Below are positions 4,931 through 47,466 of a stretch of DNA of 64,000 nt, piece by piece. How positions within the stretch are numbered: position 1 is the first letter of the stretch; every line of letters begins with the position of its first letter. The stretch comes from Solimonas sp. (GTDB taxonomy: Bacteria; Pseudomonadota; Gammaproteobacteria; Nevskiales; Nevskiaceae): positions 1-64,000 of the forward strand of contig JASBRP010000024.1 in assembly GCA_030149365.1 (NCBI GenBank). Reading direction: 5' to 3'. The position numbers and the translations under genes were made by a program. The notes beneath the pieces were generated by a model that had not been told where the DNA came from, ran no database searches, and worked only from the letters and a program-made list of their open reading frames with translations.

Positions 4931-4977
4931 CTGAATCTTCGGCGCACTCAGAGAGCGGGATATATCGAGAGGTCGCG

Positions 4978-5018
4978 CGTGCCTCGATACACCGCTACGC
5001 GGCACTCGGCATGAACGG
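4978..5018. repeat. 41-bp dispersed repeat, copy 2
   Basis: Identical over 41 bp to positions 302-342. It is placed between the GAACGG-type mosaic and the bidirectional terminator. Confidence 0.8.
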
Positions 5019-6364: not shown

Positions 6365-7363
6365 TCAGGCGCTGCGGGCTTCCAGCCAGCCCTCGGCCTT
6401 CAGGAACACCATTGCATCGCGCAAGGATTCCCGCGGCGGCCGGGGAGAAAAGCCCAGCTCACTCCGGGCCTTGTCGTTGAGCACCACGCGGTTCAGGACG
6501 GCCTGGCGCAGCACGCCGGCATTGAACTTTGGCGGCTGGCCGCTGAGGCGCGCGGCCGCCAGGGCCAGGGGCAGCGAGGCCCAGCCGACCCACAGCGGCA
6601 GCACCGTGCGCGGCATCGGCACGCCGCTGACCTCCTCCCAGACGGCCAGGAAGCGGCGCATGTCCAGCACCTCGCCGGTCAGCAGGTAGCGCTCGCCGCG
6701 GCGGCCACGGGTGGCGGCGGCGACGAAGCCGGCGGCCACGTCGCGCGCGTCGACGTAGTCGCTGACCACTTCCATCATCACCGGGATGCGGCGGTGGTAC
6801 AGGTCCAGCAGGGCCCGGCCGAAGATCGAGGGCTCGTAGTCCTCGGGGCCGATCATGTTGCCGGGCATGCAGACCACGGCGTCGAGCCCGCGCTCCTGCA
6901 CCAGCCGGGCGACCAGGGTTTCGGCCTGGGCCTTGCTGCGGGAGTAGTCGGAGCGCCCCTTCATGTTCAGCGCGCGGGTCTCGTCCAGCGGCAGCGCCAG
7001 CGGACGGTGCTCCAGCGCCGAGTGCGAGGAGCAGTGCACCAGGCGGATGCGGCGCTCGGTGCAGGCCTGCGCCACCGTGCGGGTGCCCTCGACGTTGACG
7101 CGCTGCATGCTGCCGTCGCGGTCGGGCTCGATGCTGACCTTGGCGGCGAGGTGGAACACGCAGTCCACCCCCTCCAGCAGGCGCGCCACGTCCTCGGCCG
7201 ACAGCACCGAGCCGTGGACCATCTCCACGTCCAGCCCTTGCAGCGAACGCGGCATGCCGCGCCCCGGGGGCTCCAGCACGCGCACGCTGTGGCCCTCGGC
7301 CAGCAGCGCCCGCACCAGGGCGCAGCCCAGCCGCCCGCCTCCGCCCGTGACGGCGGCAAGCAT
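6365..7363 (-). CDS. Extended SDR, 3beta-hydroxysteroid dehydrogenase-like
   Basis: 332-residue NAD(P)-dependent epimerase/dehydratase-type SDR. The N-terminal TGGGGRLG (6-13) is the nucleotide-binding glycine motif; Y140 and K144 in DYSRSK with nearby S112/S113 form the catalytic set. 3beta-HSD/sterol dehydrogenases (including the bacterial SdmB reductase type) share this layout, so oxidation of a 3beta-hydroxyl is plausible. The start at 7363 overlaps the upstream stop in TGATG, indicating translational coupling to the SnoaL-like gene. The frame stays open upstream to 7918, but that part overlaps the neighbour and is not homologous. The exact substrate is unproven. Confidence 0.88.
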   Translation of the reverse strand: MLAAVTGGGGRLGCALVRALLAEGHSVRVLEPPGRGMPRSLQGLDVEMVHGSVLSAEDVARLLEGVDCVFHLAAKVSIEPDRDGSMQRVNVEGTRTVAQACTERRIRLVHCSSHSALEHRPLALPLDETRALNMKGRSDYSRSKAQAETLVARLVQERGLDAVVCMPGNMIGPEDYEPSIFGRALLDLYHRRIPVMMEVVSDYVDARDVAAGFVAAATRGRRGERYLLTGEVLDMRRFLAVWEEVSGVPMPRTVLPLWVGWASLPLALAAARLSGQPPKFNAGVLRQAVLNRVVLNDKARSELGFSPRPPRESLRDAMVFLKAEGWLEARSA

Positions 7364-7845
7364 CAGGCGTGCTTCACGCCGTGCTTGGCCAGGTAGTGGG
7401 CAGTGATGTTGGGCGGCTCGGTGAACGGCGTGACGATCTCGAAGATGCGCGAATAGGTGGCGCGCTTGATCAGCCACTTGCCGTCCACCTTGACGTAGCT
7501 GTCGCGGTACAGCGAAGAGCCGTCGGTGTAGATCTTGTTCTTCAGGTCGCAGAACCAGTCCTTCAGGTACCAGACGCCAGTGGCCTCGGTGGGCGACTGG
7601 AAATCGATCTCCGGGTGGTTGACGTGGTGGAAGGCGATGGCCTCGGCGTGGAAGGCGTAGCCGATGGCCTCCAGGATCTTGTCGCGGCCCTGGGCCTCGA
7701 ACAGGTAGGTGCCGCCCTCGTAGCGCACGCTGGCATCCTCGGTGAAGAGCGTCTTGAGCTCGGCGAGGTTGGCCGTGTCGATGCAGCGGCAGTAGGCGTA
7801 CTTCAGGCGCTTGATCAGCTCCAGGTCTTCCAGCGGCAAGGCCAT
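7363..7845 (-). CDS. SnoaL-like (NTF2-fold) protein
   Basis: 160-residue single-domain protein of the SnoaL-like/NTF2 superfamily, recognised from the opening LIKRLKYAYCRCIDTANLAEL, the mid-region HHVNHPEI and the closing strand pattern KWLIKRATY. Members include ketosteroid isomerases, scytalone dehydratase-like enzymes and bile-acid dehydratases, so a dehydration or isomerisation step on a ring substrate is possible. AGGAG precedes ATG 7845. It shares a TGATG junction with the SDR and is divergent from the thioesterase at 8033. The activity cannot be assigned from sequence alone. Confidence 0.8.
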   Translation of the reverse strand: MALPLEDLELIKRLKYAYCRCIDTANLAELKTLFTEDASVRYEGGTYLFEAQGRDKILEAIGYAFHAEAIAFHHVNHPEIDFQSPTEATGVWYLKDWFCDLKNKIYTDGSSLYRDSYVKVDGKWLIKRATYSRIFEIVTPFTEPPNITAHYLAKHGVKHA

Positions 7846-8032
7846 GGGGTTCTCCTCTTTGGATGGTTGGAATTCTTCGGATCGCAGTATCGGAACGGCC
7901 GGGCCGGCCGGGCTTCACCCGTTAGGACGAAAGCGCCTGCGGTTCCGGCCTTAACCCGGGATGCCGAACGATCCGCCCCGGGAGCCGATCCGATATCCTT
8001 GGCCATCCCCTTTATCCCCTGGAAATCCCTCA

Positions 8033-8479
8033 ATGGACCTGGAAGTCGCCAAGAAAGCCCTGGAAACCGGTATCAAGTTCGTCGCCAACTGCGGCCTGAA
8101 GGTCGTGGAGCTGCGCCGAGGCTACGTCAAGTGCCTGGTGCCCTTCGCCGGCAACGGCAACCATATCGGCACCATGTACGCCGGCGCGCTGTTCACCGTG
8201 GCCGAGATCCCGGGCGGTGCGCTGTTCCTGTCGTCCTTCGACATGTCGCGCTATGCGCCGATCGTCAAGGAGATGAACCTGCGCTTCCTCAAGCCCGCCA
8301 AGGGCGACGTGACCATCGAGATCGCGCTGAGCGAGGAGCAGATCACCGCGATCAGCGCCGAGGCCGACGCCAAGGGCAAGGCCGAGTTCACGCTGGACGG
8401 CGAGATCAAGACCGCCGACGGCACCGTGGTGGCGATCAGCCACGGCATCTACCAGATCCGCTCGCTGCAGCGTCTCTGA
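8033..8479 (+). CDS. Hotdog-fold thioesterase (DUF4442/YiiD-C type)
   Basis: 148-residue protein of the hotdog thioesterase superfamily. The pattern NHIGTMYAGALFTVAEIPGG is the conserved turn and helix that usually carries the active site in DUF4442/PaaI-like enzymes, followed by the KEMNLRFLKPAKGDV strand. It probably hydrolyses acyl-CoA thioesters in the cytoplasm. ATG 8033 matches the family's N-terminus, although no strong Shine-Dalgarno is visible. It is divergent from the SnoaL-like gene and convergent with DUF1329 copy 2, within the catabolic island. Confidence 0.8.
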   Translation: MDLEVAKKALETGIKFVANCGLKVVELRRGYVKCLVPFAGNGNHIGTMYAGALFTVAEIPGGALFLSSFDMSRYAPIVKEMNLRFLKPAKGDVTIEIALSEEQITAISAEADAKGKAEFTLDGEIKTADGTVVAISHGIYQIRSLQRL

Positions 8480-8543
8480 GCGGAGCGCAAACCACCAACC
8501 GCCGGCCGAGAGGCCGCCCCTTCATCGGTGTACTACCCGACGC

Positions 8544-9908
8544 TCAGTGGCCCGAGCGCCTGGCCGCCGACTCCGAGAACATCTCGGGCGTCAGGCCACC
8601 CTGGTTCAGCACCCACCACTGCTTCGACTGGTTGACCAGGCGATCGGCAAAATAGGCGCCTGCGGTGAGGTCATGGTAGACCGCGACGCCGGCCTGGAAG
8701 CCGCCGATCTCCGGTGCCCAGAAGTAGTTCACCATGCTGGCGCGCCAGAGGTTGCCGCGGCCGTCGTAGTTGTCCACCCACAGCGCGTGCCAACTGTCCT
8801 CGTCGATGTAGAAGGTACGGCGGCCATAGGCGTGGCGGTAGCCGGACTTCACCGTGGCCTCCAGCACCCAGACGCGATGCAGCTCGTAGCGCTGGTAGTC
8901 GGGGTTCAGGGTGTTGGGCGTCAGCAGGCTGTCGTAGCTGACGGCCGGATCGTTCTGGCGATAGGCGTTGTAGGGGACGTAGATCTCCTTCTTGCCCACC
9001 AGCTTCCAGTCGTAGCGCGCCGGCGAGCCGTTGAACAGGCGATCGTCATCCACGGTGCGGAAGCCACCCGCGCCCTGCGGCGTGTCGAAACCGAACTCCG
9101 GGGCCTGACGCACGCGACGCGTGCCTGGGCTGTAGAACCAGGTCTGGCGGTCGTCGTTGTGGTAGTCGTTGGGATTCCAGCCGATGAACAGCTCGCCGTT
9201 CTGGCGCTCCGGCAACAGGGTGCGCACCTTGAAGAAGGAGTCGATCTGGTCCTGCGAGCTGCGCGTCTGCTTGGGGTCGTTGCTCAGCGACAGGATCTTG
9301 TAGTCCACCCGGCCCCAGGACTTGTTGCCGTTGGGATAGACCACCGCGGAATCCGAGATCACCAGCTCGGTCCAGGCGCGGTGGGGCGTCACCATGCTCC
9401 AGTGCGCCTCGATGCCACTCTTGGGGAACGGGATGGCCGGCGCGCCGCTCACCGCCTGCACGCCCATGCCGTCGTTCACCACCTCGCCGCTGGTGGCGTT
9501 CTTCTTCAGCGCCTCGCAGACCTTGGCCGAGTAGGCGAAGTCGCGGTGGCTGGGGTACACGGGGATGCGGTAGGACTGCGGGTAGCGCTTGAGCAGTTCC
9601 TTCTGCCCTGCCGTGAGCCTGGCCTCGTACTGCGCGGCGTTCTGCGCGGTGATGGTGAACAGGGGCTTCTCGTCGGCATAGGGGCCGGGGCTGTACCTGC
9701 CGGGGCCGTTGTAGCCGGGATAGCTGTCGCTCCACTTGCCGGTCCAGGCGGCGACGGAGCCGTCGGCATTGCCGGCGCGCTCGGCGCCGACGCAGGTGAG
9801 CTTGCCGCCGAGCGCGGCGATCTCCTCGGGGGTGCCCTTGGCGTGTGCCGCAGGCAGCGCCGCTGCGAGCAGGCCGGCCGCCAGGATTCGGGCCATGACG
9901 TGTTTCAT
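8544..9908 (-). CDS. DUF1329 family secreted protein, copy 2
   Basis: 454-residue paralogue of the protein at 2008-3384, with a signal peptide cleaved near AAHA-K. The same landmark segments are present ([46 protein letters not shown]). GAGGAGAT lies upstream of ATG 9908. It follows a DUF1302 gene on the same strand after only 17 nt, the classic DUF1302/DUF1329 arrangement, so the two products very likely act together at the outer membrane. Two DUF1329 copies to one DUF1302 gene suggests different partners or substrates. Confidence 0.92.
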
Positions 9909-43740: not shown

Positions 43741-45246
43741 ATGACCCAAACGCTACCCGACACCTCGAAGTGGCCCTTCCAGTCCGTGCTCGTCGCCAAC
43801 CGCGGCGAGATCGCCGTGCGCGTGCTGCGCACCGTGCAGAAGCTCGGCCTCAAGGGCATCGTCGTCTACCACGCCGCCGACCGCGGCACCGCGGCGGTGA
43901 AGATGGCGGACCAGGCCATCGAGATCACCGGCTCCACGCCGGTGGCCAGCTACCTGGACGGCGCGCAGATCATCGCCGCGGCCAAGGCCAGCGGTGCCGG
44001 CGCGATCCACCCGGGCTACGGCTTCCTGTCCGAGAACAAGGGCTTCTGCGCCGCCGTGGAGGCCGCGGGCATCCGCTTCATCGGCCCCACGCCGGAGCAG
44101 ATCGACCTGATGGGCGACAAGGTCCGTGCGCGCAACTTCGTCGAGAAGGCCGGCTTCCCGGTAGCACCCTCGGCCATCGAGGACGACGATCCCCAGACCT
44201 TCGTCGAGCGCTCGCGCAAGGTCGGCGCGCCGCTGCTGATCAAGCCCAGCGCCGGTGGCGGCGGCAAGGGCATGCGCATCGTGCGCGACCTGGCGATCCT
44301 GGAGCAGGAGATCGAGCGCGGCCGCTCGGAAGGCCAGCGCTACTTCGGCGACGGCCGCCTGTACTGCGAGCGCTACATCGAGAACCCGCGCCACATCGAG
44401 GTGCAGGTGCTGGGTGACGGCCAGGGCAGCGTGGTGCACGTGTTCGAGCGCGAGTGCTCGGTGCAGCGCCGCTTCCAGAAGATCGTGGAGGAGACTCCCT
44501 CCCCGGCCCTGGACGCCGCGCTGCGCGAGAAGATCTGCGAGACCGCGGCCGGCATCGCCCGCTCGCTGAACTACCGCAACGCCGGCACCGTGGAGTTCAT
44601 CTTCGGCCAGGGTGGCGAGTTCTACTTCCTGGAGATGAACACCCGCCTGCAAGTGGAGCACCCGGTCACCGAGGAGATCACCGGGATCGACCTGGTGCTG
44701 CAGCAGCTGCGCGTGGCCGCCGGCGAGAAGCTGGGCTACGGCCAGGCCGACGTGAAGTCTTCCGGCCACTCCATCGAATTCCGCATCTACGCCGAGGACG
44801 CCGCGCGCGGCTATACGCCGACCACCGGCCCGATCCTGGTGCTGCACCCACCGCAGGGTGAAGGCGTGCGCTGGGACAGCGGCGTGCTGCAGGGCGGTGA
44901 GGTGACCTCCGCCTTCGACCCGATGATCGCCAAGCTGATTATCCGCGGCAAAGACCGGACCGAGGCCATCGCCCGCGCCGACAAGGCGCTGCGCGAGACC
45001 GTGCTGCTGGGCTGCAAGACCAATACCGCCTTCCTGCGCCGCCTGCTGCAGCACCCGGCCTTCGTCGCCGGCGACGTGCACACCGGCTTCCTCGATGCCA
45101 ACCCGCAGATCGCGGCGGAGCCGGAGATGCCGGCGGAGACGCTGCAGGCCCTGCTGGGCGCCGCGGCGCTGAGCACGCGGCCGATGCGCGACGTTGCCGA
45201 CGCGGTCCCGGACATGCATGCAGCAATGGGTGGATGGAGGAATTGA
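43741..45246 (+). CDS. Biotin carboxylase subunit, split from its BCCP
   Basis: 501-residue biotin carboxylase of the MCC/GCC/PCC alpha type: ATP-grasp glycine loop AGGGGKGM (171-178) and the metal and bicarbonate site EMNTRLQVEHPVTEEITG (near 300). It ends at GGWRN, about where fused alpha subunits pass into the BT domain, and has no BCCP of its own. The BT-BCCP part is the separate gene at 45365. Together the two are 666 residues, the normal size of a fused alpha chain. It carboxylates biotin with ATP and bicarbonate. Confidence 0.93.
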   Translation: MTQTLPDTSKWPFQSVLVANRGEIAVRVLRTVQKLGLKGIVVYHAADRGTAAVKMADQAIEITGSTPVASYLDGAQIIAAAKASGAGAIHPGYGFLSENKGFCAAVEAAGIRFIGPTPEQIDLMGDKVRARNFVEKAGFPVAPSAIEDDDPQTFVERSRKVGAPLLIKPSAGGGGKGMRIVRDLAILEQEIERGRSEGQRYFGDGRLYCERYIENPRHIEVQVLGDGQGSVVHVFERECSVQRRFQKIVEETPSPALDAALREKICETAAGIARSLNYRNAGTVEFIFGQGGEFYFLEMNTRLQVEHPVTEEITGIDLVLQQLRVAAGEKLGYGQADVKSSGHSIEFRIYAEDAARGYTPTTGPILVLHPPQGEGVRWDSGVLQGGEVTSAFDPMIAKLIIRGKDRTEAIARADKALRETVLLGCKTNTAFLRRLLQHPAFVAGDVHTGFLDANPQIAAEPEMPAETLQALLGAAALSTRPMRDVADAVPDMHAAMGGWRN

Positions 45247-45365
45247 TGAATACCACGAACCTCTCCGTTCGTACTGAGCTTGTCGAAGTACGAACCCCCA
45301 CCGCGGCGCGGTCCGCCCTTCGACAGGCTCAGGGCGAACGGAAACCTTGCTGGAGCACCCTCTAA
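45246..45365 (+). CDS. 39-codon ORF across inserted repeat (possible coupling ORF)
   Basis: ATG at 45246 shares its A with the biotin carboxylase stop (TGATG) and this ORF's TAA shares its A with the BCCP start (TAATG). The peptide, which includes RTELVEVRTP and ALRQAQGER, is the typical translation of a dispersed repeat and is probably not a functional protein. Its frame may let ribosomes pass from one gene to the other. Confidence 0.4.
   Translation: MNTTNLSVRTELVEVRTPTAARSALRQAQGERKPCWSTL
45267..45345. repeat. Dispersed GAACGG/CTTGTCGAAG repeat, copy 3, inside carboxylase operon
   Basis: CCGTTCGTACTGAGCTTGTC at left and CTTCGACAGGCTCAGGGCG with a terminal GAACGG at right match the copies at 4821 and 31929. 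It lies between the biotin carboxylase and BCCP genes, where the fused alpha chain normally continues. Confidence 0.8.
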
Positions 45366-45862
45366 TGCATCACGCATTCAAGCTCGGTGATAACGAGCAC
45401 AACCTGGAACTCTCGCGCTCGGCCAGCGCCTACCGCCTGCACCTGGGCGAGCAGGTGGTGGACGTGGACCTCAAGACCGGCGCCGATGGCCGCGCCTGGC
45501 TGACGCTGGGCGAGCGTCACATCGAGGTAGTGATCGCCACCCGCGGTGACGACGTCTTCGTGCACCTGGACGGCGAGGCCTACCAGCTGCGCTACCAGCA
45601 TCCGCTGGACCGCCTGGCCGCGCAGGCCGGCGGCAGCGCCGAGGACAACATTCGCGCGCCCATGCCGGGCAGCATCGTCGCCGTGCAGGTCAAGGCCGGC
45701 GATACCGTGACCAAGGGCCAGACCCTGCTGGTGATGGAGAGCATGAAGATGGAAACCACCATCGCCGCGCCGCGCGACGGCACGGTGGCCGCGGTCACCT
45801 ACGAGAAGGGCCAGACCTTCGACCGCGATGCCCTGCTGCTGAGCCTGGAGCCGAACAAGTGA
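45365..45862 (+). CDS. BT-BCCP subunit (biotin carrier) of acyl-CoA carboxylase
   Basis: 165-residue protein. Residues about 1-85 match the BT domain that links carboxylase and carrier in MCC/PCC-type alpha subunits; residues 95-165 are the biotinyl domain with ESMKMET, biotin on Lys 128. GGAG lies upstream of ATG 45365. The stop overlaps the carboxyltransferase GTG start by GTGA. Carriage of carboxybiotin between the BC and CT sites is expected. A stand-alone BT-BCCP of this type is unusual. Confidence 0.9.
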   Translation: MHHAFKLGDNEHNLELSRSASAYRLHLGEQVVDVDLKTGADGRAWLTLGERHIEVVIATRGDDVFVHLDGEAYQLRYQHPLDRLAAQAGGSAEDNIRAPMPGSIVAVQVKAGDTVTKGQTLLVMESMKMETTIAAPRDGTVAAVTYEKGQTFDRDALLLSLEPNK

Positions 45863-47466
45863 AAAGAATCGAATCGAAACTGAACACGGCCTCTGCCGGC
45901 TTCCAGGCCAACGCCGCGCACAACCGCAAGCTGGCCGAGGAGTTCAAGGAAAAGCAGCGCGCGGTACGCCATGACCGCCCGCAGCGCGACATCGACCGCC
46001 TGCGCCAGCAGAACAAGTTACTGGTGCGCGAGCGCATCAAGCTGCTGCTGGATCCGGGCACGCCGTTCCTGGAGTTCTCCTCGCTGGCGGCCAACGAGGC
46101 CTATGACGGCGAGGTGCCGGGTGCGGCCTGCGTCACCGGCATCGGCATCGTGTCGGGCCGCGAGGTCGTCATCAACGCAGGCGACGCCTCGGTCAAGGGC
46201 GGTGCCTGGTATCCGCTGACGGTCAAGAAGACCGTCCGCGCGCTGGACATCGCCATCGAGAACCGCCTGCCGGTGGTGCATCTCTGCGATTCCGCCGGCG
46301 GCTTCCTGCCGCTGCAGGCCGACCTTTTCGCCGACAAGTACATGGCGGGCCGCATCTTCCGCAACCAGTGCATGCTCTCCAAGATGGGCATCCAGCAGGT
46401 GTCGGTGGTGCTGGGCCACTGCACCGCGGGCGGCGCCTACGTGCCCGGCCTGTCGGACTACAACGTGATCGTGCGCGGCACCGGCGCGATCTTCCTCGCT
46501 GGCCCGCCGCTGGTGAAGGCCGCGACCGGCGAAGAGGTCAGCGTCGACGACCTCGGCGGCTGCGACATGCACACCAGCGTTTCCGGCACCGCGGACTACC
46601 CGGCCTCGTCAGAAGAGGAAGCCATCGCCATCGCGCGTGACATCGTGGCGCAGTTCAAGCGGCCGCAGAAGGCGCACACCGAGTGGCAGGCCCCGGAAGA
46701 GCCGCACTACGACCCTAGCGAGCTCTACGGCGTGCTGCCGCAGGACATCAAGCAGGGCTTTGACATGCACGAGATCATCGCGCGCATCGTCGACGGCTCG
46801 CGCTTCCACGAGTACCAGCCGAACTACGGCAAGACCCTGATCTGCGGCTATGCCCATATCTGGGGCTACAAGGTCGGCATCCTGGCCAACAACGGCGTGC
46901 TGTTCAACGACAGCTCGCTCAAGGGCGCGCACTTCATCGAGCTGTGCAACCAGGCCCGCACGCCGATCGTCTTCCTGCAGAACATCACCGGCTTCATGGT
47001 GGGCAAGGAGTACGAGCGCCGCGGCATCACCAAGGACGGCGCCAAGATGATCATGGCGGTGTCCAACTGCGAGGTGCCCAAGTTCACCGTGATGTGCCAT
47101 GGCTCCTTCGGCGCCGGCAACTACGGCATGAGCGGCCGCGCCTTCGACAGCCGCTTCACCTTCAGCTGGCCGCAGTCGCAGATTTCGGTGATGGGTGCCG
47201 AGCAGGCCGCCAACACCCTGGCCGACGTGAAGATCCGCCAGCTTGCCCGTACCGGCAAGAAGTTGTCCCAGGAGGAAATCGACGCGATCCGCGACCCGGT
47301 GCTGGGCGAGTTCAAGCGCAAGCAGAGCGCCTACTGGTCCACTTCGGAAATCTGGGACGACGGCATCATCGACCCGGCGGATACCCGCAATGCCCTGGGC
47401 ATCTCACTGTCGGCGGCGCTGAACACCCCGATCGGCGAGCCCCGCTACGGCGTGTTCCGCATGTAA
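45859..47466 (+). CDS. Carboxyltransferase (beta) subunit, MCC/GCC-type
   Basis: 535-residue acyl-CoA carboxyltransferase. The enoyl-CoA-type oxyanion regions are in GHCTAGGAYVPGLSDYNVIV and HGSFGAGNYGMSGRAFD. The sequence has the 3-methylcrotonyl/geranyl-CoA carboxylase layout, but its RIFRNQCMLSKMGIQQVSVV segment differs from both standard groups as I recall them, so the substrate cannot be assigned. It starts at GTG 45859, overlapping the BCCP stop. It transfers carboxyl to a branched enoyl-CoA. Confidence 0.9.
   Translation: MKRIESKLNTASAGFQANAAHNRKLAEEFKEKQRAVRHDRPQRDIDRLRQQNKLLVRERIKLLLDPGTPFLEFSSLAANEAYDGEVPGAACVTGIGIVSGREVVINAGDASVKGGAWYPLTVKKTVRALDIAIENRLPVVHLCDSAGGFLPLQADLFADKYMAGRIFRNQCMLSKMGIQQVSVVLGHCTAGGAYVPGLSDYNVIVRGTGAIFLAGPPLVKAATGEEVSVDDLGGCDMHTSVSGTADYPASSEEEAIAIARDIVAQFKRPQKAHTEWQAPEEPHYDPSELYGVLPQDIKQGFDMHEIIARIVDGSRFHEYQPNYGKTLICGYAHIWGYKVGILANNGVLFNDSSLKGAHFIELCNQARTPIVFLQNITGFMVGKEYERRGITKDGAKMIMAVSNCEVPKFTVMCHGSFGAGNYGMSGRAFDSRFTFSWPQSQISVMGAEQAANTLADVKIRQLARTGKKLSQEEIDAIRDPVLGEFKRKQSAYWSTSEIWDDGIIDPADTRNALGISLSAALNTPIGEPRYGVFRM

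Follow-up and report, generated by a model that had tools for sequence, protein, structure and literature searches.

Open reading frames bridge most inserts between the two genes of a split acyl-CoA carboxylase alpha subunit

The BC-BT junction and its repeat

The window analyzed here comprises positions 1 to 64,000 (forward strand) of contig JASBRP010000024.1 from a Solimonas sp. of the family Nevskiaceae (assembly GCA_030149365.1). It encodes an acyl-CoA carboxylase of the methylcrotonyl-CoA carboxylase (MCC) and geranyl-CoA carboxylase (GCC) type, whose alpha subunit is divided between a biotin carboxylase (BC) gene and a separate gene for BT and biotin carboxyl carrier protein sequences (BT-BCCP). 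The BC gene ends at GGWRN, a repeat fills the gap, and a 39-codon open reading frame (ORF) leads across it from TGATG to TAATG, an arrangement that the first-pass annotation of this DNA had described correctly to the base (Table 1). Pfam and NCBIfam scans of the bridging ORF gave no match. Taken alone the window's bridge is within chance, as shuffling its insert yields a bridge in 13.5% of cases (8% in another run), and it gains significance only through comparison with other genomes.

Table 1. Features of the BC-BT junction and flanking genes in the window
Feature	Position	Strand	Details
Biotin carboxylase (BC) gene	43741..45246	+	501 aa, ends ...GGWRN, TGA 45244-45246; Pfam Biotin_carb_N / CPSase_L_D2 / Biotin_carb_C
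BC C-terminus, predicted BT-domain helix and hook			BT_MCC_alpha spans the break in read-through homologues; relatives stop at the same place
Likely ancestral Shine-Dalgarno in last BC codons and old stop-start overlap (TGATG)	45235..45248	+	TGG AGG encodes W-R; GGAGG 45236-45240
Bridging ORF, 39 codons	45246..45365	+	ATG 45246-45248 overlaps BC stop (TGATG); TAA 45363-45365 overlaps BT-BCCP ATG at 45365 (TAATG)
Paired REP (BIME/REPIN-like) inverted repeat, inserted	45253..45353	+	Cores at 45274 (+) and 45318 (-); inverted arms; 108 genome core copies
GGAG, candidate new Shine-Dalgarno of BT-BCCP	45352..45355	+	Inside bridging ORF, 9 nt before BT-BCCP ATG
BT-BCCP gene	45365..45862	+	165 aa; BT barrel and biotinyl domain; Pfam Biotin_lipoyl 95-160
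Carboxyltransferase (beta subunit) gene	45859..47466	+	4-nt overlap with BT-BCCP; Pfam Carboxyl_trans; best solved relatives are MCC beta chains

Repetitive extragenic palindrome (REP), BIME and REPIN families are characterized by paired short palindromes, present in about 100 copies and mostly intergenic. The repeat at the junction consists of two arms (45253-45296 and 45310-45353) that form an imperfect inverted repeat, 75% complementary. Its core, CTGAGCYTGTCGAAG, occurs 108 times (47+61) in the 4.83-Mb genome compared to once for the reversed-pattern control, showing that the element is a dispersed repeat. In sixty stretches chosen from the listed part of the 108 cores, and using a simple gene caller, 71 clusters of REP sites were examined, 41 between tandem genes, 22 between convergent genes, 1 between divergent genes, 3 within genes and 4 at edges. 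The window repeat thus has the features that define REP/BIME elements: many dispersed short palindromes, often in inverted pairs and mostly extragenic.

None of the four Y1_Tnp genes in the genome has the REP core within about 1.5 kb. These Y1-transposase (RAYT-like) genes (L186-L189) are flanked by palindromic-looking repeats, identified by eye, that differ from the window REP. An Rfam scan of the junction region gave no match at gathering thresholds, and open-licence literature yielded neither the REP core in published text nor REPs tied to intergenic translational coupling. A possible target-site duplication (TTGATGAAT on the left, CTAATGCAT on the right) is no more than a hint, since the left copy would need three changes; the right flank of the insert, CTAATGCATCACGC, is also present in a congener.

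Inserts at the BC-BT junction and at other gene joins

BC and BT-BCCP were separate genes in 57 of 58 loci including the window, with gaps of <38 nt in 34 and inserts of 38-839 nt in 23. An insert was scored as bridged when an ORF had a start codon between -4 and +30 relative to the BC stop and ended between -12 and +4 (later +1) relative to the BT start. By this rule 19 of the 23 inserts, which include several repeat types, were bridged, compared to 1.0-1.06 expected from dinucleotide shuffles, or 3.8 when 15 nt were held fixed at each end (10 nt for short inserts) and the length was varied. A stricter rule left 15/23, counting an insertion shared by loci L136 and L140 once gave 18/22, and the 16 inserts of <=220 nt, which lie outside a group of seven carrying a DUF559 frame, gave 13 bridges against 3.7 expected. 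Reverse-complementing the inserts left 2/23 bridged, and deleting 1 or 2 nt in mid-insert left 4/23 and 3/23, respectively. The shared insertion has accumulated 20 substitutions and one 3-nt indel between L136 and L140 with its frame kept. An ATG overlapping the BC stop was retained in 7/23 inserts.

The inserts are of different kinds. Besides the window REP there are CCCTCTCCC-type palindromes, some with a DUF559 frame and some without one, inserts of the GTGTATCGAGG and GTAGGAGCG types, and a further six that were unclassified. DUF559 was recognized by Pfam in all six ORFs scanned (L136, L145, L146, L148, L161 and L182), and L140 is a near-copy of L136. The occurrence of this frame near CCCTCTCCC/GGGAGAGGG-type palindromes at the same gene join in several genera (seven loci) raises the possibility of a mobile unit; a search of open-licence literature for DUF559 together with palindromic repeats found nothing relevant.

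Other junctions of the same gene row served as controls under one rule (ORF end -12 to +1), with control inserts limited to 38-900 nt, which excluded two longer ones at BT-CT (CT, carboxyltransferase) and one at CT-EST. Only 2/29 of these inserts were bridged, compared to 19/23 at BC-BT (Fisher 1.9e-8), with 2/10 at AtuA-TetR, 0/16 at BT-CT, 0/1 at TetR-BC and 0/2 at CT-EST. Separately, the inserts of L149 and L163 at BT-CT are about 1.1 kb long. Using a simple codon-usage gene caller around REP sites in the window's genome, we found bridges in 2 of 25 other tandem gaps containing the REP (expected 1.1) and in 2 of 45 tandem gaps without it (expected 2.2). Observed counts close to expected in these 25 + 45 gaps suggest that the shuffling null is calibrated, and a general rule that REP copies bridge genes was rejected for this genome. 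In two congeners of the window (L129 and L131), the same kind of REP lies at AtuA-TetR, where the window has a -1 overlap, and is bridged by a 41-codon ORF.

The first-pass annotation had also proposed that the insertion kept ribosome passage. As a pattern across genomes this proposal is now strongly supported, with bridging far above expectation at BC-BT and near chance elsewhere; for the window itself, translation of the bridge and re-initiation at BT-BCCP are what the sequence would predict. The bridges at BC-BT are very probably under selection.

Age of the split and position of the break

Among the 30 best loci, the 29 other than the window all had a BC ending at the same point and a separate BT-BCCP. 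Three congeners whose BC is 99, 97 and 98% identical to that of the window have BC-BT spacings of -1, -1 and +13 nt, respectively, with no repeat at the join. The same break was found in Bradyrhizobium, Ensifer and others, and on Roseibium and Sphingopyxis plasmids, where two genes with a 1-nt overlap are annotated. The 58th locus, L167 (G062, a draft genome; about 6989-9034, strand read), has BC, BT and BCCP fused in frame via a short linker. A 90-row BC tree (midpoint root only, bootstrap not fully settled, L114 dropped from alignment and tree) groups the 52 rows split at WRN with L167, set apart from the rest by a branch supported at 100/98, and fused and otherwise-split alpha chains fall outside this clade. 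Thus, one old split and one re-fusion, in L167, would be the simplest reading; it is plausible, if unproven, that the alpha chain was fused before that split.

The window's BC is present in 2 of 398 genomes of a phylum sample, its own included, the other being locus L264. Several family members carry a more distant BC/BT set (L175-L181), about 58-61% identical, next to AtuA; its genes are separated by 9-22 nt, and CGC takes the place of AGR as the penultimate BC codon.

A conserved feature of the close junctions lies in the last codons of BC. We counted GGAG in the last three BC codons of 85 distinct split loci, leaving out 26 of 111 (18 duplicates, 6 with an uncertain BT start, 1 without BT and 1 fused), and found it in 42/45 junctions with gaps of <=7 nt, 0/16 with gaps of 8-37 nt and 15/24 with gaps of >=38 nt. 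At close junctions the Arg codon is AGA or AGG in 36/38, compared to 4.1% AGR among Arg codons elsewhere in BC genes, and six close junctions have Ser (AGC) instead with GGAG retained. These codon choices point to an ancestral Shine-Dalgarno of BT-BCCP that is likely embedded in the W-R codons of BC, which would explain why this codon pair is conserved. A tree restricted to the 61 rows with gaps of <=37 nt shows 9 changes of gap class.

The position of the protein break was examined against the described architecture of the GCC BT domain, in which a long helix is followed by a hook loop with a conserved Trp483 buried in the beta subunit and by an eight-stranded barrel (PMC4673880, in the text available). 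As an analytical device to join the two chains for profile search, the in-frame stop was read through in two loci. The Pfam BT_MCC_alpha profile then matched above its cut-off at 467-578 in L049 (P0001), spanning the break at 499, and at 470-581 in L040. An AlphaFold2 model of P0001 has helices at 462-493 and strands at 504-579, with a mean pLDDT (predicted local distance difference test) score of 89 that falls to only 56 in block 491-500, and Foldseek matched full-length MCC and propionyl-CoA carboxylase (PCC) alpha chains. In the window itself, BT-BCCP covers only model positions 41-115 of BT_MCC_alpha at 23.1 bits, under the cut-off of 31, and the C-terminal 48 aa of BC gave no match to this profile by themselves. 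The Trp of GGWRN (W496 of P0001) is nearly invariant in an alignment of fused and split chains, and from its position would be the hook Trp described for GCC. Profile and model together place the break inside the BT domain, with the helix and hook predicted on the BC chain and the barrel on the BT-BCCP chain.

The window therefore has the BC domain, then the BT helix, hook and barrel, then BCCP, as in an alpha chain, but not on one chain, and the two chains presumably reassemble into one BT domain. This points to a subclass of carboxylases in which two chains would have to contribute to the BT domain. The beta-subunit pocket residue that is Phe in MCC (Phe191) and Gly in GCC (Gly162), as given in the consulted part of PMC4673880, falls in an Ala column of the window carboxyltransferase (ungapped alignment to human MCC beta, counted by eye), suggesting that the enzyme may use a substrate other than methylcrotonyl-CoA or geranyl-CoA. 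Elsewhere in the window, an identical 42-nt repeat, GCGTGCCTCGATACACCGCTACGCGGCACTCGGCATGAACGG, occurs at 301-342 and 4977-5018, 4.7 kb apart.

Explanations for the bridges and known systems

We propose that the MCC/GCC-type alpha subunit was split long ago in the hook of the BT domain, and that the likely ancestral state had the genes touching (TAATG, TGATG or gaps of <=7 nt), with the Shine-Dalgarno of BT-BCCP in the W-R codons of BC and ribosomes that ended BC restarting on BT-BCCP. Palindromic repeats of several kinds would then have wedged into this join many times, and the inserts that persisted would mostly be those translatable over the whole distance between the BC stop and the BT start. 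In the window, the REP pair appears to have landed directly after the old start codon, leaving the old GGAGG and ATG intact to feed the bridge. Ribosomes would re-initiate at this ATG, cross the hairpin by translating 39 codons of no further use, terminate at TAATG and then, aided by the new GGAG, restart on BT-BCCP.

Translational coupling is probably the reason that bridges are selected, and we consider it the best explanation overall for the sequence patterns. A gap of about 20 nt is reported to almost abolish termination-reinitiation, and gene overlaps to be enriched among subunits of heteromeric complexes (Huber et al., PMC10666635, in the text available). By that measure, a hairpin of 118 nt would break the coupling if ribosomes could not cross it. 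Why the pair should be coupled is a more tentative matter; one possible reason is that the chains sharing the BT domain have to be assembled in balance, perhaps while they are being translated. It is similarly conceivable, though we would not yet favor it, that the split domain imposes coupling so strict that mobile palindromes at the stop-start join persist mostly as translated bridges.

Several observations weigh against selection for coupling. No bridge spans four of the 23 inserts, including two short ones of 38 and 53 nt, showing that coupling can be lost: in L145 an ORF spans most of the gap and ends at -80, in L173 it starts at +56 and ends at -4, and the short ones are L147 and L149. 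A Shine-Dalgarno-like motif is found near BT in 19/23 inserts, making independent initiation of BT possible. The DUF559 frame makes the openness of its seven inserts less surprising, and because these inserts share sequence, not all insertions are proven independent. The bridge rule grew out of inspection of these junctions and was given its formal shape on the very junctions it describes. Under the lax rule (ORF end to +4), bridges were scored in 7/10 inserts at AtuA-TetR (expected 2.7), 8/18 at BT-CT (expected 4.6) and 7/26 REP gaps including the window (expected 3.0), indicating that some bridging may occur at other junctions; we set this rule aside since a downstream gene that begins with ATGA supplies a stop of this sort by itself. 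Outside the family only four more gaps were scored, of which L080 (62 nt) is bridged and L082 (27 nt), L088 (30 nt) and L090 (42 nt) are not, leaving 1/2 bridged at >=38 nt. Finally, the association of GGAG with gap class has only 3 independent pairs on supported branches (median p 0.25); their direction agreed in almost all of the 200 pairings, and relatedness limits this statistic.

The alternative that survives best holds that the element and its choice of target account for bridging. Mycobacterial interspersed repetitive units (MIRUs) are reported to carry an ORF and to target stop-start overlaps (PMC12548453, in the part consulted), and repeats of this type would bridge genes with no selection acting on BC-BT. 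The ATGs retained on the BC stop in seven inserts and the bridged REP at AtuA-TetR in the window genus fit such elements, but several repeat kinds are bridged at BC-BT, the same REP is bridged in so few other tandem gaps of the window's genome and none of the 16 BT-CT inserts is bridged, making this explanation unlikely.

Untranslated stretches of message can invite Rho-dependent termination or RNA decay. Selection could thus act to keep the transcript covered by ribosomes, with no need for coupled initiation of BT, and a bridge would indeed protect the transcript too. Unbridged inserts of 38-124 nt are nonetheless tolerated at BT-CT, the next join downstream, which would belong to the same transcript if the genes form one operon, as their spacing suggests, and we regard protection of the message as somewhat less likely again. 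Chance is very improbable: REP DNA is G+C-rich and often open, and a 39-codon ORF could be meaningless given how often the shuffled window insert is bridged, but shuffling predicts about 1 bridge (3.8 with ends fixed) where 19 were found, most bridges are lost on deletion of 1-2 nt, and the same rule gives near-expected counts in the other tandem gaps. Least probable is the first-pass proposal that the repeat insertion itself split a fused gene, which the joint match of the two products to the domain order of one MCC/GCC alpha chain and the placement of the repeat exactly at the break had seemed to favor, but which is refuted by the separate genes without the repeat in congeners, the family, Bradyrhizobium, Ensifer, others and plasmids, and by the grouping of the split rows of the tree in one clade.

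If coupling is indeed so strict, selfish repeats at this join would be nature's equivalent of engineered bicistronic spacers, and their bridge signature could serve to detect obligately coupled gene pairs in any genome. Insertions between co-transcribed genes amount to natural coupling experiments, and the difference between BC-BT and the next join (19/23 open compared to 0/16) suggests that sequence alone may reveal which neighbours need coupling.

Comparison with known systems places the junction between several precedents. The window repeat shares with REP, BIME and REPIN elements its paired short palindromes, its copy number of about 100 and its location mostly between genes, although no RAYT gene was found adjoining it. 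MIRUs (Supply et al. 1997, via PMC12548453) are the nearest precedent, and the window's 39-codon ORF has a MIRU-like geometry, with an ORF inside the element leading to the next gene. In MIRUs, as far as this source describes them, the property is carried by the element itself; here, several repeat kinds are bridged at one gene pair, and bridging is not a general trait of the window REP (2/25 elsewhere, expected 1.1).

Termination-reinitiation pairs share with BC-BT the TAATG or TGATG overlap, the encoding of subunits of one complex and, in the portion of PMC10666635 consulted, distance-sensitive coupling, whereas in the bridged BC-BT cases 68-687 nt now separate the formerly overlapping ends and two overlaps or near-overlaps flank what would be a translated filler. 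The short intergenic ORF mgtQ between mgtC and mgtB resembles the bridges in position and raises downstream translation through mRNA structure, but is described in the available text of PMC8092293 as translation-aborting and dependent on acidic residues, whereas the BC-BT fillers are mostly unrelated and look like plain passage.

At the protein level, the alpha chains of GCC, MCC and PCC have the same order of BC, BT helix and hook with a conserved Trp, barrel and BCCP (PMC4673880, as above), yet form one chain where the split family has two, broken just after the presumed hook Trp. AccE-dependent acyl-CoA carboxylases, in the part of PMC3199775 consulted, are alike in that an interaction helix is provided by another polypeptide. 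Their helix comes from a separate small subunit, whereas in the split family the helix would remain on BC and the barrel would accompany BCCP.

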